Assembly: GCA_020725705.1 (NCBI GenBank)
Contig: DYEN01000356.1
Coordinates: forward strand, 1 to 34,498
From: Anaerolinea sp.
GTDB lineage: Bacteria; Chloroflexota; Anaerolineae; Aggregatilineales; Aggregatilineaceae
Length of the DNA stretch: 34,498 nucleotides
Reading direction: 5' to 3'
The translations under genes were made by a program, and so were the position numbers. Positions 4,651-26,092 of this stretch are shown here, in pieces. Each line of letters starts with the position of its first letter. Positions within the stretch are counted from its first letter, which is position 1. The notes under the pieces were generated by a model. The model searched no databases, was not told the DNA's origin, and saw only the letters and a program-made list of their open reading frames with translations.

Positions 4651-6004
4651 GACACTCACCATGCCCAAGCTGGGCTTCGACATGGCAGAAGGCACGCTGA
4701 TCGCCTGGACCAAGTCGGTCGGCGATACGATTAACAAGGGGGATGTGATCGCCGAGATCGAGACCGACAAGGCCACGATCGAGATCGAAGCACAGGCGGG
4801 CGGCACGATCTTGAAATTCCTGGCCGAGCCGGGCGATGTCGTCCCGGTGGGCGCGCCGATCGCGTATGTTGGCGCCGAGGGCGAGCAGGTGCCCGAGGAA
4901 GGCGCTCCGCCGCCCGCCGCGGAGCCGCCCAGCCAGGCCGAGGCCGAGGCTGTGGCCGCACCGCCCAAGCCCGAAGCCGCGCCCGGTAAAACCGAAGACA
5001 AGGACGAAGGCGAGGCGCGGCCCCAGTACGCCGAAGCCAAAGCCGAAGCTGAGGCAGAGGGCACTGAGGAAGCCGGTTTCATCAAAGCCAGCCCGATCGC
5101 GCGGCGCATCGCCGACGAGCGCGGTATTGATCTGCGCCGCGTCAAGGGGACAGGACCCGGCGGGCGGATCGTCAAGCGCGACGTCGAGGAGTTCCCGGTC
5201 GAGGAAGCCCCGGCAGCCCCGGTCAAAGAGGCCGCGCCTGCGCCTGCAGCGGCACCCGCGCCGTCTGTTGAGCTGCCGCAGCCCTCGGTTGGCGAAGTGC
5301 CGTCCGGCCCGGATGTGGAGATCATCGAGATCAGCCGGCTGCGCAAGCGTATCGGCCAGCGGATGGTCGAGAGCAAGCTCTACGTCCCGCACTTCTATGT
5401 CACGACGGCTATCGACGTCACGGCACTACTTGAGCTGCGCAAGCAGTTGAACGAGAGCATCCCGGACGAAGCGCGCAAGATCAGCGTCAACGACCTGATC
5501 GTCAAAGGGGCGGCGCTGGCCCTGCGCGAGTACCCAAACCTCAACACGCACTTCTACGGCGACCGGCTCGTGCGGCACAAGCGCATCCACATCGGGATCG
5601 CTGTGGCGCTGCCCGGCGGCGGCCTGATGAACGTGGTCGCGCGGGACGCCGACAAGACGGCGCTGGGGACGATGGCGGTCCAGAACCGCGAGATGATCGC
5701 CCGCGCCCGCGAGGGCAAGGTCCGCGCCGAGGATGTAGAAGGTAGCACCTTCAGCGTCAGCAACCTGGGTCCGTACGACGTCGATCACTTCGCGGCGATC
5801 ATCAACCCGCCCGAAGCCGCGATCCTGGCCATCGGCGCGGCCCGCAAGACGCCGGTCGTGCTGGATGACGATACGGTGGGCGTGCGCATGATCATGAAGG
5901 CGACGATCAGCGTCGATCACCGTGTCAGCGACGGGGCCGAGGGTGCGGAGTTTCTCAAACTCTTTAAAGATCTGCTCGAAAACCCGATGCGGCTGCTGAT
6001 GTAG
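4643..6004 (+). CDS. pdhC: dihydrolipoamide acyltransferase (E2) of 2-oxoacid dehydrogenase complex
   Basis: Lipoyl domain (ETDKATIEIEAQAGG), peripheral subunit-binding domain (ASPIARRIADERGIDLRRVKGTGPGGRIVKRDV), C-terminal ISVDHRVSDGAEGAEFL. GTG start overlaps the E1beta stop. Confidence 0.92.
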   Translation: MAETLTMPKLGFDMAEGTLIAWTKSVGDTINKGDVIAEIETDKATIEIEAQAGGTILKFLAEPGDVVPVGAPIAYVGAEGEQVPEEGAPPPAAEPPSQAEAEAVAAPPKPEAAPGKTEDKDEGEARPQYAEAKAEAEAEGTEEAGFIKASPIARRIADERGIDLRRVKGTGPGGRIVKRDVEEFPVEEAPAAPVKEAAPAPAAAPAPSVELPQPSVGEVPSGPDVEIIEISRLRKRIGQRMVESKLYVPHFYVTTAIDVTALLELRKQLNESIPDEARKISVNDLIVKGAALALREYPNLNTHFYGDRLVRHKRIHIGIAVALPGGGLMNVVARDADKTALGTMAVQNREMIARAREGKVRAEDVEGSTFSVSNLGPYDVDHFAAIINPPEAAILAIGAARKTPVVLDDDTVGVRMIMKATISVDHRVSDGAEGAEFLKLFKDLLENPMRLLM

Positions 6005-6046
6005 CCCTGGCGTGGCCCATGCGGCGCGCCTGAGCATGACGAATCG

Positions 6047-6086
6047 AACCGGGGCCGAGCATGGCTGCTCCCCCGGTTTTGTTTTG
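6047..6086 (+). terminator. Rho-independent terminator after the 2-oxoacid dehydrogenase operon
   Basis: AACCGGGG...CCCCGGTT perfect 8-bp stem followed by TTGTTTT. Confidence 0.7.
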
Positions 6087-6156
6087 GCGCGGGCAATCGT
6101 TTCAGTTGGAGCGGTGAAGCGGTGATAGATAGTACTGTCTGCCGCTGAAAGAAGCA

Positions 6157-6165
6157 TGCTATACT
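6157..6165 (+). promoter_or_regulatory. extended -10 promoter element upstream of glpABC
   Basis: TGCTATACT, 35 bp upstream of the TTG start at 6200; no clear -35. Confidence 0.45.
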
Positions 6166-6199
6166 CGCCTACACAATCGGCACTGGATAGGAGTCACCT

Positions 6200-7819
6200 T
6201 TGGAAACGACGTCAGTTGATGTCCTCGTCGTGGGTGGGGGGGCGACGGGTGCCGCAGCGGCCTACGACCTGGCGCGGCGCGGCGTTCGGGTGTTGTTGGT
6301 GGACCAGAACGACCTGACGACCGGCACGTCCGGGCGCTATCACGGGCTGCTCCATTCCGGCGGGCGTTACGTCATCACCGACTTTGACACGGCGGTGGAA
6401 TGCATCACCGAGAACCTGATCCTGCGCCGCATCGCGCCCTTTGCCATCGAAGATACGGGCGGGCTGTTTGTGGCGACTTCGCAGGATCCCGATGATTTCC
6501 CGGCGCGCTGGGTTGCCGCCTGCGCCAGAGCCGGCATCGCCACCGAGGCCCTGACCCCGGAGCAGGCGCGCGCGCTGGAGCCGGCCCTGACGCGCGACAT
6601 CACCGCTGTCTACCGCGTGCCGGATGCCTCGTGCGATTCGTTCGATCTCAATCACGGCTTCATCACGGCTGCGCGCACCTACGGCGGCGATGCCTGGATC
6701 TATCAGCGCGTGACGGGCTTTCTGACCGACGGCGACGCGGTGGTCGGCGCGGAGCTGGAAGACACGCGCACCGGCGAGCGGCGGCGGGTGCATGCCGCGT
6801 GCGTGCTCAACGCGACCGGCCCCTGGGCCGGCGTCGTCGCCGGGCTGGTGGGTCTGGACGTGAAGATCCGGCTCGACCGTGGCTCGATGGTCGCCATGAA
6901 CATCCGCTGGGTGAACACGATCGTCAACCGGCTGCGCCCGCCCTCGGACGGCGACATCCTTGTGCCGGTCGGGACGGTCTGCGTGTTGGGCACGACCTCG
7001 ATCCGCACCGAGGATCCAGCCGACACACATGTGGACGTGTCGGAAGTCAGCACGTTGCTGCGTGAGGCCGACGTGGTGGTGCCCGGCATCCGGCAAGGGC
7101 GGGCGCTGCGCGCCTGGGCGGGTGTGCGCCCGCTCTACGAGCCGCCGGCAGAGCTGGCACAGCTTGAGAGCGGGCACAACGTCAGCCGGCGCTTCGCGGT
7201 GATCGACCACACCGAGCGCGACGGGCTGCGCGGCCTGGTGACGGTGGTGGGCGGCAAGCTGACGACCTGCCGTCTGATGGCCGAGCAGGCGGTCGATGTT
7301 GTCTGCCGGCAGCTTGGCATCTCGGCGCGTTGCACGACCGCCGACGAGCCGCTGCCCGTCCCCGAAACCTCGCCGCGACATTATCACCAACTGACTCACC
7401 GCGTGCACCGGCTGGAGCACGGCGAGATGCCCGGCGCGCTGATCTGCGAGTGCGAGGTTGTCACGCGGCCGCAGTTGGAAGCGCGCATCGCCGCCTATGG
7501 GGATCAGCCGGTGGCGCTGGACGACCTGCGCCGCGATCTGCGCCTGGGGATGGGCCCATGCCAGGCGGGGTTCTGCGGCTATCGCGCGGCGGGCATCCTG
7601 CACGCGGCGAAGGGGCTGTCACCCGGAGACGCGACACGCGCGCTGGGCGCGTTCGTCGGCGAGCGGTTCCGAGGCGTGCGGCCGCTGCTCTACGGCCACC
7701 AACTGCGCCAGCTCTATCTGGACGAGCTGATCTACCGGCGCACGCTGGGCCTGGACACGCTTTTGACGCTCGACCAGCCGCAACCTGAGGGGGTGAGCGA
7801 TGCCGGCAGCGAAGCCTGA
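6200..7819 (+). CDS. glpA: anaerobic glycerol-3-phosphate dehydrogenase subunit A
   Basis: FAD motif VLVVGGGATGAAAAYDLARRG, TSGRYHGLLHSGGRY, and C-terminal BFD-type [2Fe-2S] motif CECEV...GPCQAGFCGYR. TTG start with ATAGGAG upstream. Confidence 0.92.
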   Translation: METTSVDVLVVGGGATGAAAAYDLARRGVRVLLVDQNDLTTGTSGRYHGLLHSGGRYVITDFDTAVECITENLILRRIAPFAIEDTGGLFVATSQDPDDFPARWVAACARAGIATEALTPEQARALEPALTRDITAVYRVPDASCDSFDLNHGFITAARTYGGDAWIYQRVTGFLTDGDAVVGAELEDTRTGERRRVHAACVLNATGPWAGVVAGLVGLDVKIRLDRGSMVAMNIRWVNTIVNRLRPPSDGDILVPVGTVCVLGTTSIRTEDPADTHVDVSEVSTLLREADVVVPGIRQGRALRAWAGVRPLYEPPAELAQLESGHNVSRRFAVIDHTERDGLRGLVTVVGGKLTTCRLMAEQAVDVVCRQLGISARCTTADEPLPVPETSPRHYHQLTHRVHRLEHGEMPGALICECEVVTRPQLEARIAAYGDQPVALDDLRRDLRLGMGPCQAGFCGYRAAGILHAAKGLSPGDATRALGAFVGERFRGVRPLLYGHQLRQLYLDELIYRRTLGLDTLLTLDQPQPEGVSDAGSEA

Positions 7820-9113
7820 GCGACACAGTGTCGCGTCGCATCCGGCCGCCGAGACCGACGTCATCGTGATCGGCGCCGGGCTGGCCGGGCTGATGGCGGC
7901 GGTGTTTGCCGTCGAAGCGGGCGCGCGCGTCCGCCTGATTGCGCAGGGGTGGGGTCAGCAGCTTGTCACGCCGGGCTGGATCAGCGTCTGCGACCGCGCC
8001 GAGGACGATGTGATCGCCGAAGTGCGCGGGTACGCCGCGCTGCACCCGGAGCACCCCTACGGCCGGGCGGGCGACGACGCGATGGTGAACGGGCTGGAGC
8101 GGTTCCGCGCCGCCACCGAGGCGGTCGGCCTGCCCTACGAACTGCGCCGGAAGGACGGGCACAACATGCGCCTGATGACCCTGCTAGGCGGCATCCAGCG
8201 CGTGATGCTGGCGCCGCGCGGGCTGGCGGCAGGCGACCTGACCGACGTGCGCGGGCCGATCCTGCTGGTGGGATTTGCCGGCTGGCGCGATTTCTTCGCC
8301 GACCTGGCCGCGGCCAACCTGCGCCGCCAGGGTATCGACGCGCGCGCGCTGGCGATCCAGCTCCCCGACCCGGACCGCTATTGGGACCTCTGGCCGGGCG
8401 ATCTGGCGCGCCATTTCGATTCGGCGCTGTTTCGCGAGGCGATGGCGCGGCAGGTAGCACCCCATGCCCGCGATGCGGAGCGTGTGGGCTTCCCGGCTGT
8501 GCTGGGCATGGACGATCATCCGCGCGCGCTCGATGACCTGAGTGGGCAGATCGGGCGCCCGGTCTTCGAGATCCCCACCCTGCCGGAGAGCGTGCCGGGC
8601 GTGCGCCTCAGCAACCGCCTGCGCCGCTGGCTGCTGCGCCAGGGCGCGCGCGTGCAGATCGGGCATCCGGTGGTGCGCGGCGTGGTCGAAGGGCGGCGCT
8701 GCGTCGGGGTTGAAGTGCAGTCCTTGGGGCACACCACGCTCTTCCGCGCCGATCACGTCATCCTGGCGACGGGTGGTCTGTACGGCGGCGGGATCGAAAC
8801 CGACGAGAGCGGGCGCGTGTGGGAGCCGCTGTTCGGCCTGCCTGTGCTGGCGCCGGAAGTGACGAGCCGCGCGGAATGGTATTACGACGACCTGCTCATC
8901 GAGCGCGGCCACCCCATTCACCGCCAGGCCGGGCTGCGCGTCAACACGCGCCTGCAGCCGCTTGACGAGTCGGGCGAGCCGGTGCTGGAAAATGTCTATG
9001 CTGCCGGGCAGATGCTGGCCGGGTTCAACCCGCTGACGGACGGCTGCGCCGAAGGCATCGCCCTGGCGACGGCCTACAAAGCGGTGCAGACCGCGCTTGG
9101 TCTGGACGAATGA
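7800..9113 (+). CDS. glpB: anaerobic glycerol-3-phosphate dehydrogenase subunit B
   Basis: DVIVIGAGLAGLMAAVFAVEAGARV; NVYAAGQMLAGFNPLTDGCAEGIALATA; located between glpA and glpC. Confidence 0.9.
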   Translation: MPAAKPERHSVASHPAAETDVIVIGAGLAGLMAAVFAVEAGARVRLIAQGWGQQLVTPGWISVCDRAEDDVIAEVRGYAALHPEHPYGRAGDDAMVNGLERFRAATEAVGLPYELRRKDGHNMRLMTLLGGIQRVMLAPRGLAAGDLTDVRGPILLVGFAGWRDFFADLAAANLRRQGIDARALAIQLPDPDRYWDLWPGDLARHFDSALFREAMARQVAPHARDAERVGFPAVLGMDDHPRALDDLSGQIGRPVFEIPTLPESVPGVRLSNRLRRWLLRQGARVQIGHPVVRGVVEGRRCVGVEVQSLGHTTLFRADHVILATGGLYGGGIETDESGRVWEPLFGLPVLAPEVTSRAEWYYDDLLIERGHPIHRQAGLRVNTRLQPLDESGEPVLENVYAAGQMLAGFNPLTDGCAEGIALATAYKAVQTALGLDE

Positions 9114-10447
9114 TGCAGACTGCGAGCGACACTGTTATGAACGACCACACGCTGAGCCTGATCGAACTCACGGCGTTTACCGCCGATCACTGCGTCAAGT
9201 GCAACATCTGCACCTCAGCCTGTCCCTTTGCCAAGGTCACGCCGCTGTTTCCCGGCCCGAAGGTCGTCGGGCCGCAGTGGCAGCGCCTGCGCGATCCGGA
9301 TGCCCCCTCCCCCGATCACTCGCTCGATTACTGCTCAAGCTGCGGGATCTGCACGCTGGTCTGTCCGCACGGTGTCAAGGTGATGGAGATCAACACGCAG
9401 GCCAAGGCCAGGTTGGTCGAGACGCACGGCCTGTCGCTGCGCAACTGGTTTCTGGCCCGCAACGAGCTATGGGGCCGGCTGGGGACGCCCTTCGCGCCGC
9501 TGGCGAACTTCGCGCTGCGTAACCGGCTGGTGCGTTGGGCGGCGGAGAAGGTGATCGGCGTTTCCCGGCGCGCGCCGATGCCGGGCTGGGCCGGGTACAC
9601 CTTCCGCGGCTGGTGGCAGCGCCAGCTACGCCATCACCCCCGCCCGGAGCCTGTGTCCGACGCCGACCGCGTGGTGTACTTTCACGGCTGCTCGACCAAC
9701 ACCTACGAGCCGCATATCGGTAAGCTGGCGGTCGCAATTCTGGAGCACATCGGGCTGCATGTGGAAGTTCCGCCGCAGACGTGCTGCGGGCTGCCCGCGC
9801 AATCCAACGGCGATTTCCCCGGCGCGCGGCGCTATGCACGGAAGAACATCGAGAGTCTGGTTGAGTACGCCCGGCGCGGCATCCCGATCGTGGGCACGGC
9901 GGCAAGCTGCATGACGGCGATCAAAGGTGACTACCAGCACGTGCTCGGCCTGGACGATGCCGACGCCCGGCTGGTGGCCGCGCACACCTACGATTTTATG
10001 GAGTTCCTGTGGAAGCTGCACCGGGAAGGGCGGCTGCCGACCGATTTCCACCCGATCCATCAGGTGCTGCCCTATCACGCGCCGTGCCAGCTTAAGGCAC
10101 ATGGCTTCGGGCGCCCGGCGCTCGACGTGCTGTCGCTGATTCCCGAACTAAAGCTGTGGGAGATCGACGCGGACTGTTGCGGCATCGCCGGGACATACGG
10201 CTTCAAGGCGGAAAAGCGCGAGATCTCCGAGGCGGTGGGCTGGCCGATCGCGCAGCAGGTGCAGGAAGCGGGCGCCGAGGTTGTGGTCTGCGACACTGAA
10301 ACCTGCCGCTGGCAGATCCAGGCACTGACCGGTGGCACGGCGATCCATCCGGTTGTGTTGTTGGCGGAAGCCTACGGGCTGTCGGTGGACGACTATCGCC
10401 CGCCGGTGCGTGCCGATAAGCGCCGCGCGCCTGCCGGCGTGTGGTAG
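9110..10447 (+). CDS. glpC: anaerobic glycerol-3-phosphate dehydrogenase subunit C (2x[4Fe-4S], two CCG domains)
   Basis: CVKCNICTSACPFAKVTPLFPGPK, CSSCGICTLVCPHGVK, CCGLPAQSNGDFPGA, CCGIAGTYGFKAE; ATGA overlap with glpB. Confidence 0.93.
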   Translation: MMQTASDTVMNDHTLSLIELTAFTADHCVKCNICTSACPFAKVTPLFPGPKVVGPQWQRLRDPDAPSPDHSLDYCSSCGICTLVCPHGVKVMEINTQAKARLVETHGLSLRNWFLARNELWGRLGTPFAPLANFALRNRLVRWAAEKVIGVSRRAPMPGWAGYTFRGWWQRQLRHHPRPEPVSDADRVVYFHGCSTNTYEPHIGKLAVAILEHIGLHVEVPPQTCCGLPAQSNGDFPGARRYARKNIESLVEYARRGIPIVGTAASCMTAIKGDYQHVLGLDDADARLVAAHTYDFMEFLWKLHREGRLPTDFHPIHQVLPYHAPCQLKAHGFGRPALDVLSLIPELKLWEIDADCCGIAGTYGFKAEKREISEAVGWPIAQQVQEAGAEVVVCDTETCRWQIQALTGGTAIHPVVLLAEAYGLSVDDYRPPVRADKRRAPAGVW

Positions 10448-10496
10448 CGAACGCCGCACCCGCGGTCGTTTGGGCAGCGGGAGCGCGGGCCGGCTG

Positions 10497-10976
10497 CTAC
10501 TGGCCCGCTTTGCCGACGATCTCCGGAGTCAGCATCCAGCGCATCGACCACGTGCCCGCTTCGTATTCCAGGCAGAGCGTGCCGGATGTAGTGAACCAGA
10601 CCGGGCGCCCGCTATTCTGCCCGGTCAGCAACAGGCTCGCCAGCTCTTCCATGAACGGGTTGTGCCCCACGTACATAACCGGATCGGTCTCGTGCGGCAG
10701 CGCGCGCGCCAGCGGCTCGACCGGGTCGCCGTAGAGCAGGCCGGAGACGGCGACCACGCCGCCCGGCGGGTTGAGCGCGCGCCCGAAGATCTCGGCGGTT
10801 TCGCGTGCGCGCACCATCCCGCTGTGCCGGATCTGGTGGACGGCGATGCCCGCCTTCGCCATGCGCCGCGCAATGCGCTCGACGTCGGCCCGGCCCCGCT
10901 CGGTCAGCGGACGGTCCGCGTCGTGGGCGTAGCCGCTGCGGGCTGCTTTGCCATGTCGGACAAGATAAACACGCAT
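10497..10976 (-). CDS. sixA: phosphohistidine phosphatase SixA-like (histidine phosphatase family)
   Basis: MRVYLVRHGKA...DRPLTERGRADVERIARRM...SGMVRARETAEIF...VMYVGHNPFMEELASLLL; start at 10976 inside ORF 10497..11234. Confidence 0.85.
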   Translation of the reverse strand: MRVYLVRHGKAARSGYAHDADRPLTERGRADVERIARRMAKAGIAVHQIRHSGMVRARETAEIFGRALNPPGGVVAVSGLLYGDPVEPLARALPHETDPVMYVGHNPFMEELASLLLTGQNSGRPVWFTTSGTLCLEYEAGTWSMRWMLTPEIVGKAGQ

Positions 10977-11023
10977 AACCCCCTCCCTGAGCGCACTCAC
11001 CCGCGCCTGGCCGGGCGACCTGC

Positions 11024-11449
11024 TCACCACAGGTCCAGCTCGCCGGGCGGGTTGTGCAGCGTCTCCCAGAATTCCTCGTGGGTGAGCGGTACGAACGTTT
11101 TCGGTTTGACCCAGTACGCTTTGTCTTCCATCACCAGGAACAGCCGCTCGCCCCGGTCGCGCTTGAGATTGGCGGCGACGTTGGGCAGCAGCAAGTCGTC
11201 CCGGAACTCGTAGCGCCCTTTGACCTCGACCCAAGTGTGCAGGTCCGGCAGGTAGAAGTCGACCAGATAGTGACCTGCCCCGATGCGTTCCGGTTCGTAC
11301 CGCCAGTGGATGCCGCGCCGCTCCAGTTCCTCGGCAAACCAGACCTCAAGCTGCGAGCGCAACTCGACGCCCTTGACCACGCCGGGCAGCGACATGATCC
11401 GGCGTTTGCCCCGACGGGGCGCCGGTCCACTGCGGTGAAGGGGAGTCAT
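11024..11449 (-). CDS. PDDEXK-like (TnsA/endonuclease I-type) nuclease-fold protein
   Basis: RSQLEVWFAEELERRGIHWRYEPERI...HYLVDFYLPDLHTWVEVKGRYEF gives an E...VDF...VEVK pattern. An alternative start is at 11395. Confidence 0.6.
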   Translation of the reverse strand: MTPLHRSGPAPRRGKRRIMSLPGVVKGVELRSQLEVWFAEELERRGIHWRYEPERIGAGHYLVDFYLPDLHTWVEVKGRYEFRDDLLLPNVAANLKRDRGERLFLVMEDKAYWVKPKTFVPLTHEEFWETLHNPPGELDLW

Positions 11450-11496
11450 CGCGTCGTTCTCCGTCGAACTCGGCGCAGCGACGGGCGCGGCACGCC

Positions 11497-12675
11497 TCAA
11501 TCGGACGCGCGGCGGCTGCGGCGCTCGCGTTTGCGCTCGCGGCGCACGGCGAACGGGTCCGGCGTGTAGCCAGGATCGTCGACGGCGCGTGGTGCAACCC
11601 ATTTTTCTTGCGGCGCGGCTGCCTGGGCGGTTTCGATGGTCGGTTCCGCCGGGGCGGGCGCCGCAGTTGCGGCGGGTGTTTCGCGGATGCTGCGTGGCGA
11701 CGCAACCCCGCGCTGGAGCAGCAGGAAAAGCTGGAGCGCCTCGTCGAAGGGCACGTCCAGATCGGCGGCGACGTGTTCGATCTCGCGCAGCATCTCGGCC
11801 TGGCTGCGACCCTGCGCCCCTGCCGTCCACAACGCCTGATATGCCGCGCGAACGGCAGGCGGCGCGCTGACCACCACGGTCACGGGGCGGTCGCTGGCCG
11901 GTAGCAGGCCGTACGCCTGATAGGCCGCCAGCTCGTCCTCGATCACGCTTTCGAGCGTCTTGACATCCAGCGGGACGGGGTCGCCGCCGATCAGGCGCAG
12001 GCGGGCGAGGTGCTCGTAGACAATATCGCGCACGCTGTCGCCGATCAGCGCCTCGAACTGATCCTGACCGGTATACTGTCGCAGCGTGTTGAAGTGCGTT
12101 TCGTCGGCGTAGGTGGGGTTGAAGTACAGCGAGACGGACACCTCAAGATCGACCGGCAGCTCGTCCGAGTCCAGGACGTTCTCCACCCGCTCGGTCACCT
12201 CGACGGTATTGAAATCCACATACGGCACGGCGCGCGCGTTCCAGCGCCAGGGCACGATCATCCGCCCCGGTTCCAGGTAGTCGTAGGTCGTCGTGCCATC
12301 CTCGACGGCGAAATACCAGCGCGGGGGGACGGCGACGATCCAGCGGGCGGTGAGCGGCGCGGCAAGATAACGCACGAAGACGATCACGCCGCCGACGATC
12401 AGCGCGATTCCCAGCCGGCCCAGCCACAAGAGGTTCGCCCCGACGGCGATCAGCAGATACCAGATCAGCCCGAACAGCGCCAGCGCCAGCCCAAAGACCA
12501 GCCCCTGCGCCACCATCCACGCCCACCAGGTGAGGCTGTTTGCACCGGCGCGATCGCGCAGCATGGCATAGCGGTGCAGCCAGCCGGTGCGGCCACCCCA
12601 GCGCGCGCCCATCAGCGACGGGGGTAGCGTGCGGGACTCGGAACCGGACCGGTTAGAGGGCGGGCCATGTGTCAT
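11497..12675 (-). CDS. membrane protein with divergent SPFH/band-7-like domain
   Basis: Two hydrophobic segments (WWAWMVAQGLVFGLALALFGLIWYLLIAVGANLL; LGIALIVGGVIVFVRYLA). Then VPYVDFNTVEVTERVENVLDSDELPVDLEVSVSLYFNP...FEALIGDSVRDIVYEHLARL resembles the SPFH fold. Confidence 0.55.
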   Translation of the reverse strand: MTHGPPSNRSGSESRTLPPSLMGARWGGRTGWLHRYAMLRDRAGANSLTWWAWMVAQGLVFGLALALFGLIWYLLIAVGANLLWLGRLGIALIVGGVIVFVRYLAAPLTARWIVAVPPRWYFAVEDGTTTYDYLEPGRMIVPWRWNARAVPYVDFNTVEVTERVENVLDSDELPVDLEVSVSLYFNPTYADETHFNTLRQYTGQDQFEALIGDSVRDIVYEHLARLRLIGGDPVPLDVKTLESVIEDELAAYQAYGLLPASDRPVTVVVSAPPAVRAAYQALWTAGAQGRSQAEMLREIEHVAADLDVPFDEALQLFLLLQRGVASPRSIRETPAATAAPAPAEPTIETAQAAAPQEKWVAPRAVDDPGYTPDPFAVRRERKRERRSRRASD

Positions 12676-12962
12676 GATGAGCGCATCCTTCACCCCAGGC
12701 GGGCAGTCTACCGGAGCAGACAGCGCGCCGGTGGTCGGGCCTCTGACTCGATTGTCGTACGGCGTGGGGCGCGCTGCAACCTGCGCGCTGCCCGGAACGC
12801 CGCCCAAACGGTGCGGGCGTTCCAATCTGCATTCTAGTGGCAAACGGGCGCCGGGTAAAGCCGCGCCGCCTGCCGATCACTTTGCAGAACGCCCGCGCTG
12901 GCGTATCCTTAACAGGCAGCAGCCGGCGTCCGCCACGCGGGCAGCCGGTCGAGCCGGAAAGG

Positions 12963-16797: not shown

Positions 16798-17136
16798 CTA
16801 ACCTGTGCGGCTGACGTAGACCCTGTCCTCAACCACCCGCACATGCCACATCGGCAGCCAGTGCGACGACAGCGGCGACAACCCGCCGCCGATGTAGCGC
16901 CCGGTCGTCAGATTGTAGCGCGCGCCCGTGTTGGGCGAAGTCAGGACGCAGTCGATCACCTCGCCGGTCGCCAGCGAGCCGCCGGTCTGCGGATCGCGGT
17001 CCTCAAGGGCGTACAGGCCGCTGTCGCAGGCGATGAGCAGCAGTTTGACGTCGTCCAGGTGAATCGCCTTCTTACCACGGGCCGGCAGGTCGGCCAGGTC
17101 ACACACGTAGCGGTATCCTTCAAGCGTCGTGGCCAT
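16798..17136 (-). CDS. Rieske-fold (NirD-like) protein lacking canonical [2Fe-2S] ligands
   Basis: VCDLADLPARGKKAIHLDDVKLLLIACDSGLYALEDRDPQTGGSLATGEVIDCVLTSPNTGARYNLTTGRYIGGG follows the Rieske pattern, but the CPH and CPxH positions read DPQ and SPNT. Confidence 0.65.
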   Translation of the reverse strand: MATTLEGYRYVCDLADLPARGKKAIHLDDVKLLLIACDSGLYALEDRDPQTGGSLATGEVIDCVLTSPNTGARYNLTTGRYIGGGLSPLSSHWLPMWHVRVVEDRVYVSRTG

Positions 17137-17400
17137 AAGCTTCACTCCACACGATCACCATCGGGTTTCGGCATAAGTTTCCGGAGTGAGGGCTGGCACA
17201 ACAGCCGGGACGGAACGGGCAGAAGGCCCCAGAGGCGCGCCGCCACAATGTCAGCGGCGCCTGCGTGCTTACCCTCATTATACACGACAGTCGCTCCGCT
17301 TTGGGCGCGCCATCAGCAAAAGCATTGCCAGCCGCCTGTCGGGTGAGTATCATCGTCCGGGTTGGGCGACCTTGCCCGATTGTGATACCATCTACAAGCT

Positions 17401-17454: not shown

Positions 17455-19272
17455 ATGGCCTACAACGATCTGCACGCGTTTGTCGCCCGCCTGGAAGCTG
17501 CAGGCGAGCTGGTGCGCATCAGCACGCCGGTTAGCCCGCATCTGGAGATTACCGAGATCACCGATCGCGTCAGCAAGGGGCCGGCCGGTCGCAACAAAGC
17601 GCTGCTGTTCGAGAACGTTGAGGGCAGCAGCATGCCGGTGCTGATCAACGCGTATGGGTCGCCCCGGCGCATGGCCTGGGCGCTGGGCGTGGACAACCTC
17701 GAAGACCTGCGCCACAACCTGGCCAAACTGATCGATCCGCGTCTGCCCAAAGGCAAGCGGGCCATGGCCGCGCGCGGGCTGGAGCTGCTCGGCGCGCTGC
17801 GCAGCATCGGGCTGGGGCCGAAGTACGTGCGCCAGGGCAAGGCGCTCTGCCAGCAGGTGATCATTACCGAGAATCCGTCGCTGGACCGGTTGCCGATCCT
17901 GACCTGCTGGCCGGGGGATGGCGGCCCGTTCATCACCCTGCCGCAGGTCATCACGCGCGATCCGGCGACCGGCCAGCGAAACGTCGGCATGTACCGCCTG
18001 CAGAAGGTGGACGAGCGCACGCTGATGATGCACTGGCAGCGCCACAAAGGCGGCGCCGATCATGAGCGCGAGGCGCGCGCCCTGCAGAAGCCGCGCATCC
18101 CCGTTGCCGTGGCGCTGGGCGGCGACCCCGTCGAGATGTGGTGCGGCTCTGCGCCGCTGCCGCCCGGCATCGACGAGTACCTGTTGGCGGGCTGGCTACG
18201 CGGCAAGCCGGTCTCGTTCGTCAAGTGCATCACCCAGAACCTGGAAGTGCCCGCCGACGCGGAGATCGTGATCGAGGGCTATCTGGACCCCAACGAGCAG
18301 CGCCCCGAGGGGCCGTTCGGCGATCACACCGGCTTTTACACGCCACAAGATCTCTTTCCGGTAATGCATGTGACCGCCATCACCCACCGGCGCGACCCCA
18401 TCTACCCGACGACCATCGTCGGCAAGCCGCCCATGGAAGATTACTGGATGGGCAAGGCAACCGAGCGCCTGTTCCTGCCGCTGATGCAGCTTTTCCTGGG
18501 CGAGATCGTGGACGTCAATATGCCCGCCGAGGGGGTGTTCCACAACCTGGTGATCATCAGCATCAAGCCACGCTTCCCCGGCCACGCGCAAAAGGTCATG
18601 TACGGGCTGTGGGGGCTGGGCCTGATGATGCTCGCCAAAGGCTTCATCGTTGTCGATGCGGATGTGAACGTGCACGATCTCGACGCCGTGGCCGAGGCCG
18701 TGCTGCGGCATGTGGACTGGAAGCGGGATGCGACCGTAGTCGATGGCCCGGTCGATCAGCTCGATCACTCGGCGATCCGCGACTCATACGGCGGCAAGAT
18801 CGGCGTGGACGCCACGCGCAAGCCCGATCGCGCCCCGGTTGAGGCGGGGCGGCTGGACCGCACCGGGCTGGACCGGTTGCCGGGGGTGCGCGCCTGGACA
18901 ACGGTCAAGGATGGCGTGCTGATCGCCGCCATCGACAAGACGCACCTGCCCATCGCCGAGGCATACGAGGCCCTCTGGGCGTTGGCGCCGGGGTACAATC
19001 TGGTGCTGCTGGACGCGAGCGTCGATGTCCACAACCTGTCGGACGTGGCCTGGCGCGCGTTGGGCAATGTCGACTGGCGGCGCGATATTCTGATTCAGAA
19101 CGGCGGGATCGATCACTTTGCGCCGCCGGGCGCTCCGTCCTGCATCGGGATCGACGCGACGGCGAAAGGCCCGCGCGACGGGCACCCACGCGGCTGGCCG
19201 GACGAGATCGTCATGAGCGACGAGGTCAGGCGCCTTGTCGACGAGAAGTGGGCGCAGTATGGGATCGACTAA
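17455..19272 (+). CDS. UbiD family decarboxylase (possibly MqnL-type)
   Basis: YNDLHAFVARLEAAGELVRI...PVLINAYGSPRRMAWALGV...EDYWMGKATERLFLPLMQLFLGEIVDVNMPAEGVFHNLVIISIKPRFPGHAQKVMYGLWG. Confidence 0.92.
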   Translation: MAYNDLHAFVARLEAAGELVRISTPVSPHLEITEITDRVSKGPAGRNKALLFENVEGSSMPVLINAYGSPRRMAWALGVDNLEDLRHNLAKLIDPRLPKGKRAMAARGLELLGALRSIGLGPKYVRQGKALCQQVIITENPSLDRLPILTCWPGDGGPFITLPQVITRDPATGQRNVGMYRLQKVDERTLMMHWQRHKGGADHEREARALQKPRIPVAVALGGDPVEMWCGSAPLPPGIDEYLLAGWLRGKPVSFVKCITQNLEVPADAEIVIEGYLDPNEQRPEGPFGDHTGFYTPQDLFPVMHVTAITHRRDPIYPTTIVGKPPMEDYWMGKATERLFLPLMQLFLGEIVDVNMPAEGVFHNLVIISIKPRFPGHAQKVMYGLWGLGLMMLAKGFIVVDADVNVHDLDAVAEAVLRHVDWKRDATVVDGPVDQLDHSAIRDSYGGKIGVDATRKPDRAPVEAGRLDRTGLDRLPGVRAWTTVKDGVLIAAIDKTHLPIAEAYEALWALAPGYNLVLLDASVDVHNLSDVAWRALGNVDWRRDILIQNGGIDHFAPPGAPSCIGIDATAKGPRDGHPRGWPDEIVMSDEVRRLVDEKWAQYGID

Positions 19273-20182
19273 ACGCGCGCTGGAGAGCGCCGAAGCGCGC
19301 GGTCTGCGACCCGGCACGCTGGCCTATAAGGTCCGCGTCTTTCTGGACCTGGTGCGCTTCGAGCACACTATTTTCGCCCTGCCGTTCGCTTATATCGGCA
19401 TGGTGCTGGCTGCCGAAGGGCTGCCTACACTGTGGGATTTCGTGTGGGTGAGTGTCGCGATGGCGGCGGCGCGCACGCTGGCCTTTGCCGTGAACCGGCT
19501 GGCGGATCGGACCTACGACGCACGCAACCCGCGCACGCGCAACCGGCCCAGCGTCACCGGTGCGATCGCGCCCGGCACGATCGCGCTCTTCGCGGGTGTG
19601 GCGCTGGCGGTGCTGCTGATCGCCGCTGCACTGCTCGATCCGCTGGCGCTCAAGCTGGCGCCGCTGGCCGTGCTGTTCTTGGTGGGCTATAGCTTCACCA
19701 AACGCTTCACCGTGCTGGCGCACTGGGTGTTGGGCTTCACCGACGCGCTGGCTGTGGGCGGGGGGTGGATCGCGGTGCGCGGCTCGTTCTTCACGCCGGA
19801 CGACCTGCCCGCCTGGCTGCTGATCGCGGCGGTGATGTTCTGGATCGCGGGTTTCGACCTGATCTACGCCTGCCAGGACTACGAACACGACCTGGCCGAG
19901 GGGTTGCACGCCTGGCCCGCCAGGTTCGGGATCGCGGGGGCGCTGCTGCTGGCGAAGCTCAACCACGTGGCGTTTCTGGCGTTCCTGATGTTGGCCGGGC
20001 TGGTTGCCGGGCTGGGATGGCCGTTCTACGCTGCCGCCGCGCTGACCGCCGCGCTGCTGGTCTACGAGCACCGGCTGGTATCGCCGGACGATCTCAGCCG
20101 TGTCAACGTGGCGTTCTTCAATATGAACTCGTATATCGCCGTCACACTGCTGGCCGGGACGCTGCTGGCAGAAGTGATTTAG
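19259..20182 (+). CDS. UbiA family prenyltransferase (4-hydroxybenzoate octaprenyltransferase-like, possibly MqnP-type)
   Basis: FLDLVRFEHTIFALPFAYIGMVLA...AFAVNRLADRTYDARNPRTRNRP...DLIYACQDYEHDLAEGLHAWPARFG. ATG at 19259 overlaps the ubiD end. Confidence 0.92.
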   Translation: MGSTKRALESAEARGLRPGTLAYKVRVFLDLVRFEHTIFALPFAYIGMVLAAEGLPTLWDFVWVSVAMAAARTLAFAVNRLADRTYDARNPRTRNRPSVTGAIAPGTIALFAGVALAVLLIAAALLDPLALKLAPLAVLFLVGYSFTKRFTVLAHWVLGFTDALAVGGGWIAVRGSFFTPDDLPAWLLIAAVMFWIAGFDLIYACQDYEHDLAEGLHAWPARFGIAGALLLAKLNHVAFLAFLMLAGLVAGLGWPFYAAAALTAALLVYEHRLVSPDDLSRVNVAFFNMNSYIAVTLLAGTLLAEVI

Positions 20183-20260: not shown

Positions 20261-21520
20261 ATGCGTACTCTGTCCCTTTCTCTCGTGCTGGCGCTGGCGC
20301 TGCTGCTCGGCGCGCTGACGCCGGGTGTGTCGGCTCAGGACGAGCCGCTGCGGATGGGGCTGCTGCCGATCCTGGACGTGCTGCCCTTCTACGTCGCGCA
20401 GGAAGCGGGCTATTTCGAAGAAGAAGGCGTTGAACTGGAACTGATCCCGGTCAGCAGCGCGCTGGAACGCGACCAACTGCTGCTCGCCGGCGAGATCGAC
20501 GGCATGCTCAACGACCTGATCAGCACCGGGATCTTCAATCAGGATCAGACTCGCATTGTGATCGTCGCGCTGGCGCGCAAGGCCTATGAAGAGGCGCCGC
20601 AGTTCCGTATCCTGGCCGCGCCGCGCAGCAACATCACCATCCCGTCCGATCTGGTCGGCAAAGAGATCGCGATCAGCGAGAACTCGGTTATTCACTACAT
20701 CGCCCAGCGCATGCTGGAGCAGGCCGGCATCAGCGCGGATGACGTCACCTGGCGGCCCGAGCCGAACATCCCCGTCCGCTATCAGCTTTTGATGGAAGGT
20801 CAGCTTCCGGTCGTGGTGCTGCCGGATCCGCTGGCGCAGGCGGCGATGGTGGGCGGCGCGATCCTGGTGATGGACGACAGCTCCCTGGTCGAGACCGAGT
20901 TCAGCCAGAGCGTGCTGAGCTTCCGCAAGGAGATCGTGGACGAGCAGCCGGAGAAGGTCGAAGCCTTCCTGCGGGCGTGGATGCGCGCTGCCGAGGACAT
21001 CAACGCCGATCCGGAAGCGTACCGCGAGCTGTGGATCGAGCACACCAACGTGCCGGACAGCGTCAAGGACAGCTACCAGCTTCCGCCCTTCCCGACCTAT
21101 GCCATTACCCAGCCGGAAGCCTGGGAAGACACGGTCGACTGGCTGATCGAGCAGGGGATCATCGACGAGCGCCCGGCGTATGAGGACACGGTCGATCCAC
21201 GCTTCATCGAGGCGATCGCGCCTGAGAGTGTTGCCGGCGACCCCGAAGCGGGTGCCGCGGTTTATGTCTCGCTGGGCTGCGCGGGCTGCCACGCAACGGA
21301 AGGCGACACCGTGATGGTCGGGCCATCGCTGGCCGGGCTGGCCGGGCGCGCGGGCGAAGAGGTCGAAGGGCTGAGCGCGGCGGAGTACATCGAGCAGTCG
21401 ATCGTCGAGCCGGACGCGCACGTGGTCGAGGGCTTCAACCCCGGCATCATGCCGGCCTATACCGGCCTGAGCGACGAGGACCTGGCAAACCTGGTCGCCT
21501 ACCTGCTCTCGCTGGACTGA
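20261..21520 (+). CDS. exported ABC-transporter substrate-binding protein (SsuA/THI5/NMT1-like) fused to a C-terminal cytochrome c domain
   Basis: Signal peptide MRTLSLSLVLALALLLGALTPGVSAQ. SBP body LRMGLLPILDVLPFYVAQEAGYFEEEGVELELIPVSSALERDQLLLAGEIDGMLNDL. C-terminus GDPEAGAAVYVSLGCAGCHATEGDTVMVGPSLAGLAGR...GIMPAYTGLSDEDLANLVAYLLSLD. AAGGAGA upstream. Confidence 0.9.
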   Translation: MRTLSLSLVLALALLLGALTPGVSAQDEPLRMGLLPILDVLPFYVAQEAGYFEEEGVELELIPVSSALERDQLLLAGEIDGMLNDLISTGIFNQDQTRIVIVALARKAYEEAPQFRILAAPRSNITIPSDLVGKEIAISENSVIHYIAQRMLEQAGISADDVTWRPEPNIPVRYQLLMEGQLPVVVLPDPLAQAAMVGGAILVMDDSSLVETEFSQSVLSFRKEIVDEQPEKVEAFLRAWMRAAEDINADPEAYRELWIEHTNVPDSVKDSYQLPPFPTYAITQPEAWEDTVDWLIEQGIIDERPAYEDTVDPRFIEAIAPESVAGDPEAGAAVYVSLGCAGCHATEGDTVMVGPSLAGLAGRAGEEVEGLSAAEYIEQSIVEPDAHVVEGFNPGIMPAYTGLSDEDLANLVAYLLSLD

Positions 21521-21604: not shown

Positions 21605-22420
21605 ATGGCTGCTGTTGATTCACCGCCCGATGTGATGGTGGCGGTGGACCGGCTGACGTTCCGCTATGGCGCGCGGGGCACACCGGTTTTTCAAGACTTT
21701 AGCTGGCAGGTGCGCGCGGGCGAGGCGTGGTCGATTATCGGCCCGTCCGGCTGCGGCAAGACGACGCTGCTGACGCTGATCGCCGGGCTGCGCCGCGCCA
21801 CCGCCGGGACGATCACCGTCGGCGGGACGCGCATCGAGCGCCCGCGCCCGGAGACGGGCCTGATCCTGCAGGATTACGGCTTGCTGCCCTGGGCCACCGT
21901 CGAAGCGAATGTGGCGCTGGGGCTGCGCGTGCGCCGTTTCTACGGGCCGGACGGCAAACACGCGCCGCGTGCGGAGAAAGTCCTGGGGCGGCGTGAGGCC
22001 CGCGAGGTGGTCGAAAGCTGGTTGCGGCGGCTCAACATCTACGAGCAGCGCGCCAAGTTCCCTGCCGCGATCTCGGGCGGGCAGCGCCAGCGGACCGCTA
22101 TCGCGCGGACGCTCGCGCTCCAGCCGGACCTGCTGCTAATGGACGAGCCGTTCAGCAGCCTGGACGCCCCGACGCGGGAAGACCTGCAAAACCTGATCTT
22201 GCAGCTTCAGCGCGAGATGAACCTGACCAGCATCATTGTGACCCACGCCATCGAGGAAGCCGCCATCCTGGGCCGGCAGATCCTGGTGCTGGGTCAGCCG
22301 CCGAACACCGCCCCGGTGATTGTCCCGAATCCCGAGGCAGGCACGCCCGGTTATCGTAGCACATCAGCGTTTCTGGACCGATGCAACCAATTACGCACCC
22401 TTCTGGGCCTGAAGGTCTGA
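21605..22420 (+). CDS. ABC transporter ATP-binding protein (SsuB/TauB-type)
   Basis: Walker A IGPSGCGKTTLL, signature ISGGQRQRTAIARTLAL, Walker B LLLMDEPFSSLD, H-loop IIVTHAIEEA. Confidence 0.95.
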   Translation: MAAVDSPPDVMVAVDRLTFRYGARGTPVFQDFSWQVRAGEAWSIIGPSGCGKTTLLTLIAGLRRATAGTITVGGTRIERPRPETGLILQDYGLLPWATVEANVALGLRVRRFYGPDGKHAPRAEKVLGRREAREVVESWLRRLNIYEQRAKFPAAISGGQRQRTAIARTLALQPDLLLMDEPFSSLDAPTREDLQNLILQLQREMNLTSIIVTHAIEEAAILGRQILVLGQPPNTAPVIVPNPEAGTPGYRSTSAFLDRCNQLRTLLGLKV

Positions 22421-23235
22421 CCACCACGCGGCCCGACGCTGCGCTGCCCGCGCCGCACCCGCTGCACCTGGCTCTGCGCCAGACGGGGCGCCAGCTGCTC
22501 AATCTGGCGCTGGCGATCGGTATTTTCCTGGTGTGCTGGGTCGCGCTGGCGGCCTATCTCGACCGCGAGATCATGCCCTACCCCTGGCAGGTGATCCCGG
22601 TCTTTGTCAAGGAAATGCAGGGCAGTCTGTGGGATCATACGCTGGTCAGCGCGCGGCGCGTGTTGAGTGCCATCGCCGCGGCGGTGCTGGTCGCGACGCC
22701 GGTTGGGCTGGGGCTGGGGCAGATCCGCGTGCTCAACCGCATCTTCTCCCCGCTGATCGGGCTGGTGCACCCGATCCCCAAGGTCGTCTTTTTGCCCGTG
22801 ATTCTGGTGGTTATGGGCATCGGCGAGACGTCGAAGGTCTTTTTGATCGCGCTGATCTTGTTCTTCCAGATCCTGGTCGTGGTGCGCGACGAAGCCGCCA
22901 GTCTGCGCCCGGAGCTAATCCAGTCGGTGCGCTCGCTGGGGGCCGGGCGGCGCGCGCTGTTCCGCTATGTCTACCTGCCGGCCTCGCTGCCGGCGGTGCT
23001 GACCGCGCTGCGCGTTTCGGTCGGCACGGCGATCGCGGTGCTGTTCATCGCAGAACAATACTCGACGCGCGACGGGCTGGGGTATTATATTGTGACGCTC
23101 ACCTGGCAACGGCTGCGGTTTGCGGAGATGTACGCCGGGATTCTGGCGATGTCGCTGCTGGGCCTGGTGCTCTATCTCGTCGTCGACGTGCTGGAGCGGA
23201 TCGTCGGGCGCTGGCGGCTGGCGGGCGAGAGCTAG
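22381..23235 (+). CDS. ABC transporter permease (SsuC/TauC-type, BPD_transp_1)
   Basis: Multiple TM segments, EAA loop SVRSLGAGRRALFRYVYLPASLPAVLTALRVSVG; overlaps the ATPase gene by 40 nt. Confidence 0.92.
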   Translation: MQPITHPSGPEGLTTTRPDAALPAPHPLHLALRQTGRQLLNLALAIGIFLVCWVALAAYLDREIMPYPWQVIPVFVKEMQGSLWDHTLVSARRVLSAIAAAVLVATPVGLGLGQIRVLNRIFSPLIGLVHPIPKVVFLPVILVVMGIGETSKVFLIALILFFQILVVVRDEAASLRPELIQSVRSLGAGRRALFRYVYLPASLPAVLTALRVSVGTAIAVLFIAEQYSTRDGLGYYIVTLTWQRLRFAEMYAGILAMSLLGLVLYLVVDVLERIVGRWRLAGES

Positions 23236-23439: not shown

Positions 23440-23931
23440 ATGAGCACAGATACCGTCCTGCGCGAGCAAGTGCTTGGGCTGCTGCGGGGTGGCCACGCGC
23501 ATATGTCGCTCGACGAAGCCGTGGCCGATTTCCCGCTGGATCGGATTAACGACCGCGCGCCGCACGTGCCCTACACACCCTGGCATCTGCTGGAGCACAT
23601 CCGCATCGCCCAGGAAGATATTCTGGAGTTCACCCGCGACCCGCAGTGGGTCTCGCCCCCCTGGCCGGAAGGCTACTGGCCCGCCCGCGACGAACAGGCC
23701 GACGCAGCGCGCTGGAACGCGACGATCAACGCGATCCGGCGCGACCTGGAAGCGATGCAGGCGCTGGTCGCGGACCCGGCCAACGACCTGACCGCCGACC
23801 TGCCGCACGCGCCCGGCTACACCCTGCTGCGCGAGGCACTGCTCGTCGCCGACCACAACGCCTATCACCTGGGCGAGTTTGCCATCCTGCGGCAGGTGAT
23901 GGGTACCTGGCCGGCCAACCGCGCCGGCTGA
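23440..23931 (+). CDS. DinB/YfiT superfamily protein
   Basis: PYTPWHLLEHIRIAQEDILEFT...LLVADHNAYHLGEFAILRQVMGTW gives the metal-binding His pattern. Confidence 0.85.
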   Translation: MSTDTVLREQVLGLLRGGHAHMSLDEAVADFPLDRINDRAPHVPYTPWHLLEHIRIAQEDILEFTRDPQWVSPPWPEGYWPARDEQADAARWNATINAIRRDLEAMQALVADPANDLTADLPHAPGYTLLREALLVADHNAYHLGEFAILRQVMGTWPANRAG

Positions 23932-23949: not shown

Positions 23950-24678
23950 ATGACCGAGCCATCTCCGCCCACCGACCACGCGCGCTACGTGCAGGATATG
24001 TTCGGGCGCATCGCAGCGCGCTATGACCTGATGAATCGCCTGATGACCTTCGGGCAAGACCGGCGCTGGCGGCGCTTCGTTGTGCAACAGGCACATCTGC
24101 CGCCGGGCGGCTGGCTGCTCGACATCGCCACCGGCACGGGCGACATCGCCCTGGAAGCCCGGCGCCAGGTCCCGACGGCGCGCGTGATCGCGGCGGACTT
24201 TACCCTGCCGATGATGCAGGTCGGGCGGCGGCGGGCGGGGGCGAGCGCGATCGCGTGGCAGGCTGCCGACACGCTGCGTCTGCCGTATGCCGACGGTGTG
24301 TTCGACGCGGTCGTCAGCGGCTACCTGTTCCGCAACGTGAGCGATATCCCCGCCGCGCTGCGCGAGCAGGTGCGCGTCTTGAAACCGGGCGGGCGGCTTG
24401 TCACGCTGGACACGACGCCCCCGCCTGGCGGCCCCCTGCGCCCGCTGATCCAGTTTCATCTGCGGGTGGTGATCCCCATGCTAGGGCGGCTCGTCTCCGG
24501 CCAGGCCGACGCCTACCGCTATCTGCCGGAAAGCACGCTCGGCTTCAAGAGCGCCGAAGAACTGGCCGGGTTGATGCGCGCCGCCGGGCTGGTCGAGGTC
24601 GGCTTCCGACGCTTCATGTTCGGCACGATGGCGGTGCACTGGGGCACGCGCCCCGCCGTGGCTGTGCCGGAAAGCTGA
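23950..24678 (+). CDS. ubiE: UbiE/MenG family demethylmenaquinone/2-methoxy-benzoquinol methyltransferase
   Basis: YVQDMFGRIAARYDLMNRLMTFGQDRRWRRFVV...LLDIATGTGDIALEA...VSGYLFRNVSDIPAALREQVRVLKPGGRLVTLDTTPP. Confidence 0.93.
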   Translation: MTEPSPPTDHARYVQDMFGRIAARYDLMNRLMTFGQDRRWRRFVVQQAHLPPGGWLLDIATGTGDIALEARRQVPTARVIAADFTLPMMQVGRRRAGASAIAWQAADTLRLPYADGVFDAVVSGYLFRNVSDIPAALREQVRVLKPGGRLVTLDTTPPPGGPLRPLIQFHLRVVIPMLGRLVSGQADAYRYLPESTLGFKSAEELAGLMRAAGLVEVGFRRFMFGTMAVHWGTRPAVAVPES

Positions 24679-25022: not shown

Positions 25023-25613
25023 ATGACCCAGCCACCCCAACGTGTTGTCGTCGGCATTTCCGGCGCCAGCGGCGTGATCTACGGCATCCGCCTGCTGGAA
25101 GCCCTGCGCCAGCATGGCGCTATCGAGACACACCTGATCATTACCCCGGCAGCGCGCATTACCATCGCCCAGGAAACAACGTGGTCCGTCGGCCAGGTCG
25201 AGGCGCTGGCGGATGTTGTCCACAAGCCGGAGAATATCGGCGCCAGCATTGCCAGCGGCTCGTTTGTCACGCTGGGGATGGCAGTTGTGCCGTGCAGCAT
25301 CAAGAGCCTGTCTGCGATCGCGCACAGCTACGCGGACGATCTGCTTGTGCGCGCGGCGGACGTGCACCTCAAGGAAGGGCGACGGCTGGTGCTGGTGGTG
25401 CGCGAGACGCCGCTGCATCTCGGCCATTTGCGGCTCATGGCGCAGGCGGCGGAGCTGGGCGCGGTGATCCTGCCGCCGGTGCCCGCCTTCTACGACCGGC
25501 CGCAGACGGTGGACGACGTGATCAACCAGACGGTCGGTCGTATCCTGCTGCGGCTCGGCATCGACAACGACCTTTACTTCGAGTGGCTTGGACTGCGAGG
25601 GAAGCCGGTATGA
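25023..25613 (+). CDS. ubiX: UbiX family flavin prenyltransferase
   Basis: RVVVGISGASGVIYGIRLLEAL...IGASIASGSFVTLGMAVVPCSIKSLSAIAHSYADDLLVRAADVHLKEGRRLVLVVRETPLHLGHLRLM. Confidence 0.95.
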   Translation: MTQPPQRVVVGISGASGVIYGIRLLEALRQHGAIETHLIITPAARITIAQETTWSVGQVEALADVVHKPENIGASIASGSFVTLGMAVVPCSIKSLSAIAHSYADDLLVRAADVHLKEGRRLVLVVRETPLHLGHLRLMAQAAELGAVILPPVPAFYDRPQTVDDVINQTVGRILLRLGIDNDLYFEWLGLRGKPV

Positions 25614-26092
25614 ATGAGCTGCCGCTGCTACCGGATGACCTGCGGCCGGTGCTGCACGCGTTTCTGGCGAGTCAGTCGACCATGGCGCTGGCGACGGCTG
25701 GCGATCAGGACGGCCGGCCCCAGGTGGCGCCGCTCTTCTACGCCAGCGACGAAGCGTTCAATATCTACTGGGTGTCCAGCCCGGACAGCCGTCACAGCGT
25801 CAACATCGCGAGCTGGAACGATGTCGCCGCCACGATCTACGCCCCGACCTGGGACTGGGCCGGCATCAAAGGGGTGCAGCTCGCCGGGGACGCCATGCCG
25901 GTTACCGATGAAGAAGAGCGCCGCCACGCGCTGGCGATCTACAGCGCCAAATTCCCCTTTGTTAACGACCGCTTCTCCGAGCTGATCGAGAACAGCGTGT
26001 TCTACGTGCTGCGCCCTACCTGGCTTCGCTGGCTGGACAACGAGCGGCGCTTCGGCTACAAGCAGGAATTCCGCCTGGAGCGCAGCGAGTAG
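25610..26092 (+). CDS. pyridoxamine 5'-phosphate oxidase-like FMN-binding split-barrel protein
   Basis: MNELPLLPDDLRPVLHAFLASQSTMALATAGDQDGRPQVAPLFYASDEAFNIYWVSSPDSRHSVNI; ATGA overlap with ubiX. Confidence 0.82.
   Translation: MNELPLLPDDLRPVLHAFLASQSTMALATAGDQDGRPQVAPLFYASDEAFNIYWVSSPDSRHSVNIASWNDVAATIYAPTWDWAGIKGVQLAGDAMPVTDEEERRHALAIYSAKFPFVNDRFSELIENSVFYVLRPTWLRWLDNERRFGYKQEFRLERSE

Follow-up and report, generated by a model that had tools for sequence, protein, structure and literature searches.

Why does the substrate-binding protein (SBP) of an ABC transporter end in a heme c motif, and what does it bind? We addressed this question for a gene of Anaerolinea sp. in a stretch of 34,498 nucleotides, referred to as the window. 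Positions 20261–21520 of the forward strand were translated as a single uninterrupted ORF of 419 amino acids, and AAGGAG sits 11 bases ahead of its ATG. The protein is predicted to consist of a signal peptide, an NMT1/SsuA-type SBP domain, a short linker and a class I cytochrome c domain (Table 1). A preliminary description, made from the letters alone, had proposed the same ORF with a Sec signal peptide, an SsuA/THI5/NMT1-like domain and a C-terminal cytochrome c, and all of these were recovered; its CAGCH motif and the Met of GIMPAY were found where it had placed them.

The NMT1 profile (PF09084) matched residues 40–253 with 88.6 bits against a gathering cut-off of 20.5, and NMT1_2 also exceeded its Pfam gathering cut-off (E 9e-17). 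At the other end, Cytochrom_C (PF00034) matched residues 329–418 above its gathering cut-off, which settles the doubt, raised in the preliminary description, that the C-terminus might give no cytochrome c match. Cytochrome_CBB3 exceeded its gathering cut-off on the same protein as well (E 2e-10). The CXXCH motif, the Cytochrom_C match and the predicted axial Met together indicate a class I cytochrome c. Consistently, the top matches of the C-terminus in a PDB sequence search were class I cytochromes c, led by 1w2l, which is deposited as a cytochrome oxidase subunit II. Both domains were visible in an AlphaFold2 model (mean pLDDT 89). The linker, counted from the last conserved Phe of the SBP up to the initial Cys of the heme motif, measured 21–29 residues, a span that also contains the first helix of the cytochrome. 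A lipobox scan of the signal peptide found none, and PF02621 (VitK2_biosynth, MqnA/MqnD) matched neither this protein nor any other in its genome.

Table 1. Predicted features of the window around the SBP–cytochrome c gene.
Feature	Positions	Strand	Basis
Rieske_2 ferredoxin-like protein, divergent, upstream of operon	16798..17145	-	Pfam PF13806, E 2e-11
UbiD-family menaquinone decarboxylase, MqnL type	17455..19272	+	TIGR03701, 625 bits (cut-off 496)
MqnP-like prenyltransferase of the UbiA family; actual start probably more internal	19235..20182	+	TIGR01475 above cut-off
Signal peptide of SBP–cytochrome c, Sec/SPase I type, VSA|Q	20261..20335	+	Translation, motif only
NMT1/SsuA-like substrate-binding domain	20348..21208	+	Pfam NMT1, E 7e-25; SsuA_fam profile, residues 30-316; Foldseek TauA/Thi5/PqqT/SsuA
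Class I cytochrome c domain, C-terminal	21239..21517	+	Pfam Cytochrom_C, E 2e-12; 14/18 family genomes
Heme c attachment motif CAGCH (predicted)	21278..21292	+	Sequence; CXXCH in 14/14 fused orthologues
Axial Met397 of GIMPAY (predicted)	21449..21451	+	Sequence; column is Met in 14/14 fused orthologues
ABC transporter ATPase	21605..22420	+	Pfam ABC_tran, E 7e-31; downstream of SBP in most relatives
ABC transporter permease, TauC/SsuC/SaoP-like	22381..23235	+	Pfam BPD_transp_1, E 2e-17
DinB_2 family protein, within operon	23440..23931	+	Pfam PF12867, E 1e-5
MenG/UbiE demethylmenaquinone methyltransferase	23950..24678	+	TIGR01934 above cut-off
UbiX flavin prenyltransferase	25023..25613	+	PRK06029 and TIGR00421 above cut-off
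PNPOx-family protein, operon end	25610..26092	+	Pfam PF01243, E 1.5e-11

The SBP gene, together with those of an ABC ATPase and a permease, is embedded in a late menaquinone operon, a context that the preliminary description had not recognized. All genes from the MqnL-type UbiD through the MqnP-like UbiA, SBP–cytochrome c, ATPase, permease, DinB_2, MenG and UbiX to the PNPOx-family protein lie on the forward strand. The ATPase and permease genes adjoin the SBP gene (21605–23235) in a conserved arrangement, as is expected of an ABC transporter SBP. The prenyltransferase had MqnP_DT as its best match, but under the strict cut-off of that profile. This operon order recurs across the family wherever contigs are long enough. 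The divergent Rieske_2 gene occupies the same place at L060, L061, L062, L063 and L065, and in several family genomes Rieske_2 and DinB_2 genes go together with this operon.

MqnP prenylates 1,4-dihydroxy-6-naphthoate, and MqnL is a UbiD enzyme that takes off the carboxylate with the cofactor from UbiX, which supplies prenylated FMN to UbiD enzymes. MenA prenylates 1,4-dihydroxy-2-naphthoate (DHNA) with loss of the carboxylate, and MenG methylates the product of MqnL or MenA. MqnP, MqnL, MenG and UbiX of the late futalosine pathway are all four represented in the window operon, whereas MqnA, MqnC and MqnD are missing here and a putative ABC importer stands in their place. Only the steps from the prenyltransferase onward are kept; therefore, the naphthoate would be needed from outside the cell. 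An ABC importer whose genes lie among the late ones, and solely in genomes that lack the early ones, would be the natural supplier of the naphthoate.

We postulate that the SBP serves an ABC importer as its receptor, with a soluble dihydroxynaphthoate precursor of menaquinone as the ligand, and we consider this likely. The SBP domain would trap the naphthoate outside the cell and hand it over to the permease and ATPase. Inside the cell, MqnP would prenylate it, MqnL with the UbiX-made cofactor would decarboxylate the prenylated naphthoate, and MenG would methylate the product to menaquinone. Accepting that the transport is inward, the ligand here would most likely be 1,4-dihydroxy-6-naphthoate released by other microbes. 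The prenyltransferase partner predicts the ligand, i.e., 1,4-dihydroxy-6-naphthoate with MqnP and DHNA with MenA, and the same SBP family probably imports DHNA in MenA lineages. The early menaquinone (futalosine) pathway seems to have been replaced by this transporter.

The position of the SBP gene was then compared across relatives. Of 396 class genomes sampled, 103 contained the SBP. A quinone gene lay within 6 kb of it at 31 of 40 class loci, compared with a chance expectation of approximately 1 in 40, which is rough arithmetic from gene number and genome size and not a simulation. The neighbors at the 40 loci were MqnP (19), MqnL (18), MenG (9), UbiX (5) and MenA (4); polyprenyl diphosphate synthase was present at five loci and was the nearest quinone gene at four of these. 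The remaining nine loci showed no quinone gene near the SBP, some of them owing to a short contig. About ten more families of the class show the same linkage. Within the order, an SBP–ATPase–permease–MenG block was found in three other families, with MenA beside the block in families f4 and f8. The type of the adjoining prenyltransferase switches approximately four times on the SBP tree, suggesting that the shared element is the dihydroxynaphthoate substrate.

Several variants of the locus were observed. At five loci (L017, L129, L130, L140 and L146), the SBP gene lies directly 5' of polyprenyl diphosphate synthase, and the locus contains no corresponding ABC genes beside it. Locus L083 of G131 (5427–12908) carries seven tandem SBP paralogues ahead of a single ATPase gene and a single permease gene, and MenA is close by; one transporter may serve many receptors. 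A related SBP in G078 (L082, 9518–10882) has a C-terminal Fasciclin domain (E 5e-29). In G008 (L063, 10161–12250), the SBP gene is duplicated in tandem, and the conserved LPILDVLPFYVA motif of the first copy has diverged.

The nearest profiles and folds of the SBP are SsuA, TauA and Thi5. Therefore, the system might import a substrate that has nothing to do with quinones (e.g., a sulfonate, taurine or the pyrimidine of thiamine), and it might lie in the operon only incidentally. The SBP shares its fold, Pfam family and ATPase and permease partners with the SsuA/TauA/NMT1 (NitT/TauT-type) SBPs. However, it scored under the family cut-offs of both SsuA (SsuA_fam, 96.9 of 163.5 bits) and TauA (taurine_ABC_bnd, 21.7 of 304 bits), and differs from these proteins in its menaquinone operon and C-terminal heme c motif. 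The linkage to quinone genes in about ten families and the mutual exclusion with early genes described below also argue against an unrelated substrate, which we regard as improbable. Using Foldseek, the SBP matched the fold of binding proteins that take small anionic or aromatic ligands, including PqqT, a PQQ-binding SBP whose ligand is an acidic quinone (PDB 9b1u and 9b1v; structural match E ~1e-15). PqqT is only ~18% identical and has no cytochrome, and the ligand predicted here is a biosynthetic precursor.

If the importer replaces the early pathway, the SBP and the early genes should not occur together. All 29 order genomes that bear the SBP lacked MqnA/MqnD (PF02621) and also MqnC. PF02621 was present in 20 order genomes without the SBP, all of family f6. 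As a control, the MqnC profile strongly matched all seven MqnA/D genomes tested, five of them above its strict cut-off. MenD exceeded its cut-off in 75 order genomes, only one of which (G020) is SBP-bearing, and the same genome was the only one of the 29 with MenB above cut-off. In G020, a fragment of the SBP coexists with MenB and MenD; the early pathway was absent in the other 28. Any early gene was found in 1/29 SBP-bearing genomes and 94/125 others (Fisher p 3e-13, relatedness ignored); because the genomes of the order are related, this exclusive pattern represents few independent events. Independent support comes from the class-wide linkage to quinone genes and from the repeated switches of the adjoining prenyltransferase type. 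Among 36 order genomes with a strong MqnP match, 17 had the SBP only, 19 had MqnA/D only, and none had both or neither. Most genomes are metagenome assemblies, yet all 18 genomes of the family agree on the early-gene absences. The late-gene linkage across the class and the early-gene absence across the order are two properties expected of the proposed importer, and comparative genomics argues strongly for precursor import.

Thirty-one genomes of the order contained neither the SBP nor the known early genes, and most of them retain MenG, indicating that other routes exist. These genomes may use another uptake or synthesis route. Among 15 such genomes inspected for a diverged importer near MenG, ABC genes were found in G145 only, as a MenA–MenG–permease–ATPase cluster on a contig that ends inside the ATPase. 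The same 31 genomes would be compatible with an early menaquinone pathway of an unknown kind, in which case the ABC system would import a different, earlier precursor or a cofactor of that pathway. We consider this rather unlikely since the genes kept in SBP-bearing genomes begin exactly at the prenyltransferase step.

Next, we considered the fused cytochrome c. Every one of the 18 genomes in the GTDB-style family of this bacterium had the SBP, and it was fused to cytochrome c in 14 of them; the SBPs of G001, G004, G006 and G008 lack the cytochrome. The CXXCH motif and axial Met were kept in every fused member. The cytochrome domain is under purifying selection, with dN/dS values of 0.09–0.28 in closely related pairs, which in most cases somewhat exceed those of the SBP. 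The more distant pair G000–G011 gave 0.70 with a dN of 0.46, indicating that the cytochrome domain evolves faster than the SBP. The fusion is real, conserved and selected. The preliminary description had named an assembly error joining two ORFs as a threat to its reading; a chimera or chance ORF is ruled out by the recurrence of the same fusion in 14 genomes and by purifying selection, and its probability is negligible.

Its question of whether the architecture occurs elsewhere was answered within the family and by one further genome, G033, of another family. The cytochrome c of G033 is of another subtype (best Pfam match Cytochrome_CBB3, E 9e-13), and its SBP clusters with unfused MenA-linked SBPs on the SBP tree; therefore, this fusion was most likely acquired separately. 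Several changes are required on the SBP tree within the family, and a constraint keeping all fused members together, i.e., a single origin, was marginally rejected (AU p 0.036). Either a single gain followed by losses or repeated gains may explain the history. The 40 SBP loci of the wider class gave no CYTC match, indicating that the fusion is a local elaboration. A split pair, with a separate cytochrome c gene adjoining an unfused SBP, was sought and not found in the loci examined.

The preliminary description had further suggested that ligand capture is coupled to electron transfer. The architecture on which this idea rested is real and conserved; however, coupling cannot be essential to uptake because four of the 18 family genomes and nearly all class relatives carry this SBP and its ABC transporter but no cytochrome c. 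The domain is better described as an accessory, a putative tethered electron carrier added in one family. The domain is 55% identical to G000:C331, a stand-alone lipoprotein cytochrome c of the same genomes, and the fused domains form no clade of their own. The genome also encodes a CoxB with the same kind of cytochrome c domain. These observations, and the absence of the cytochrome in four family genomes, suit a passenger on the precursor importer, which would shuttle electrons between respiratory complexes and gain only co-expression with quinone synthesis from its position. We consider this a serious possibility, although somewhat short of probable. The class I lipoprotein cytochromes c of these genomes and caa3-type CoxB domains share the CXXCH, the axial Met and 42–55% identity with the fused domain, whereas the latter is joined to the SBP by a short linker, without a lipid anchor. 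The linker contrasts with the long tether of the lipoprotein cytochrome and fits a fixed neighbor better than a roaming carrier. The second fusion in G033, with a different cytochrome c, also speaks against a mere passenger.

The missing anchor raises another explanation. A lipobox was found in 34 of 40 class relatives, and in none of the fused family SBPs with an intact N-terminus, nor in G033. The cytochrome c might therefore dock or anchor a non-lipidated SBP beside a membrane respiratory complex. However, the unfused family members also lack a lipobox, suggesting that the cytochrome is not simply an anchor replacement, and we consider docking unlikely.

The likely ligand, a dihydroxynaphthoate, is a hydroquinone, which makes coupling of capture to electron transfer more plausible than the preliminary description could argue. 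We tentatively prefer, as a weak guess, that the heme would set the oxidation state of the captured hydroquinone or pass its electrons to the respiratory chain; a redox action on the captured ligand is possible, if doubtful. The potentials of class I cytochromes c are usually positive and those of naphthoquinones lower; therefore, the favored flow would be from hydroquinone to heme to respiratory chain. The more specific version, in which the dihydroxynaphthoate exchanges electrons with the heme at the receptor and is oxidized or kept in a given redox state before import, with the electrons going to the respiratory chain, is slightly more doubtful still. DHNA triggers an oxidative stress response in Lactiplantibacillus plantarum (PMC10746273), and control of the redox state at the receptor could thus be useful. 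If this version is true, building-block scavenging and electron harvesting would be combined in a single protein, and this arrangement would have at least two origins (in family f1 and in G033). In the open-licence papers covered by a full-text search, no description of an SBP–cytochrome c fusion was found, so this architecture would be new to that literature.

Many bacteria possess only the last menaquinone steps and are thought to depend on precursors shed by neighbors. Importers of soluble menaquinone precursors have been argued to exist and to await annotation (PMC4746308), transporters for these precursors had not been described (PMC5738691), and the quinone uptake pathways of L. plantarum are yet to be identified (PMC10746273). 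We found no later description of such a transporter in the open-licence literature, which was screened mostly by title and abstract. The menAG-only DHNA scavengers, e.g., gut bacteria, likewise retain late genes only and are expected to obtain the precursor from neighbors, but no dedicated importer was known for them (PMC4746308 and PMC5738691), whereas a candidate is named here. It is a three-gene transporter for which each subgroup has a defined predicted ligand. If the proposal is true, it explains the quinone dependency of a large, mostly uncultured lineage and points to a medium supplement for growing it, and one purified protein would make the transport testable.
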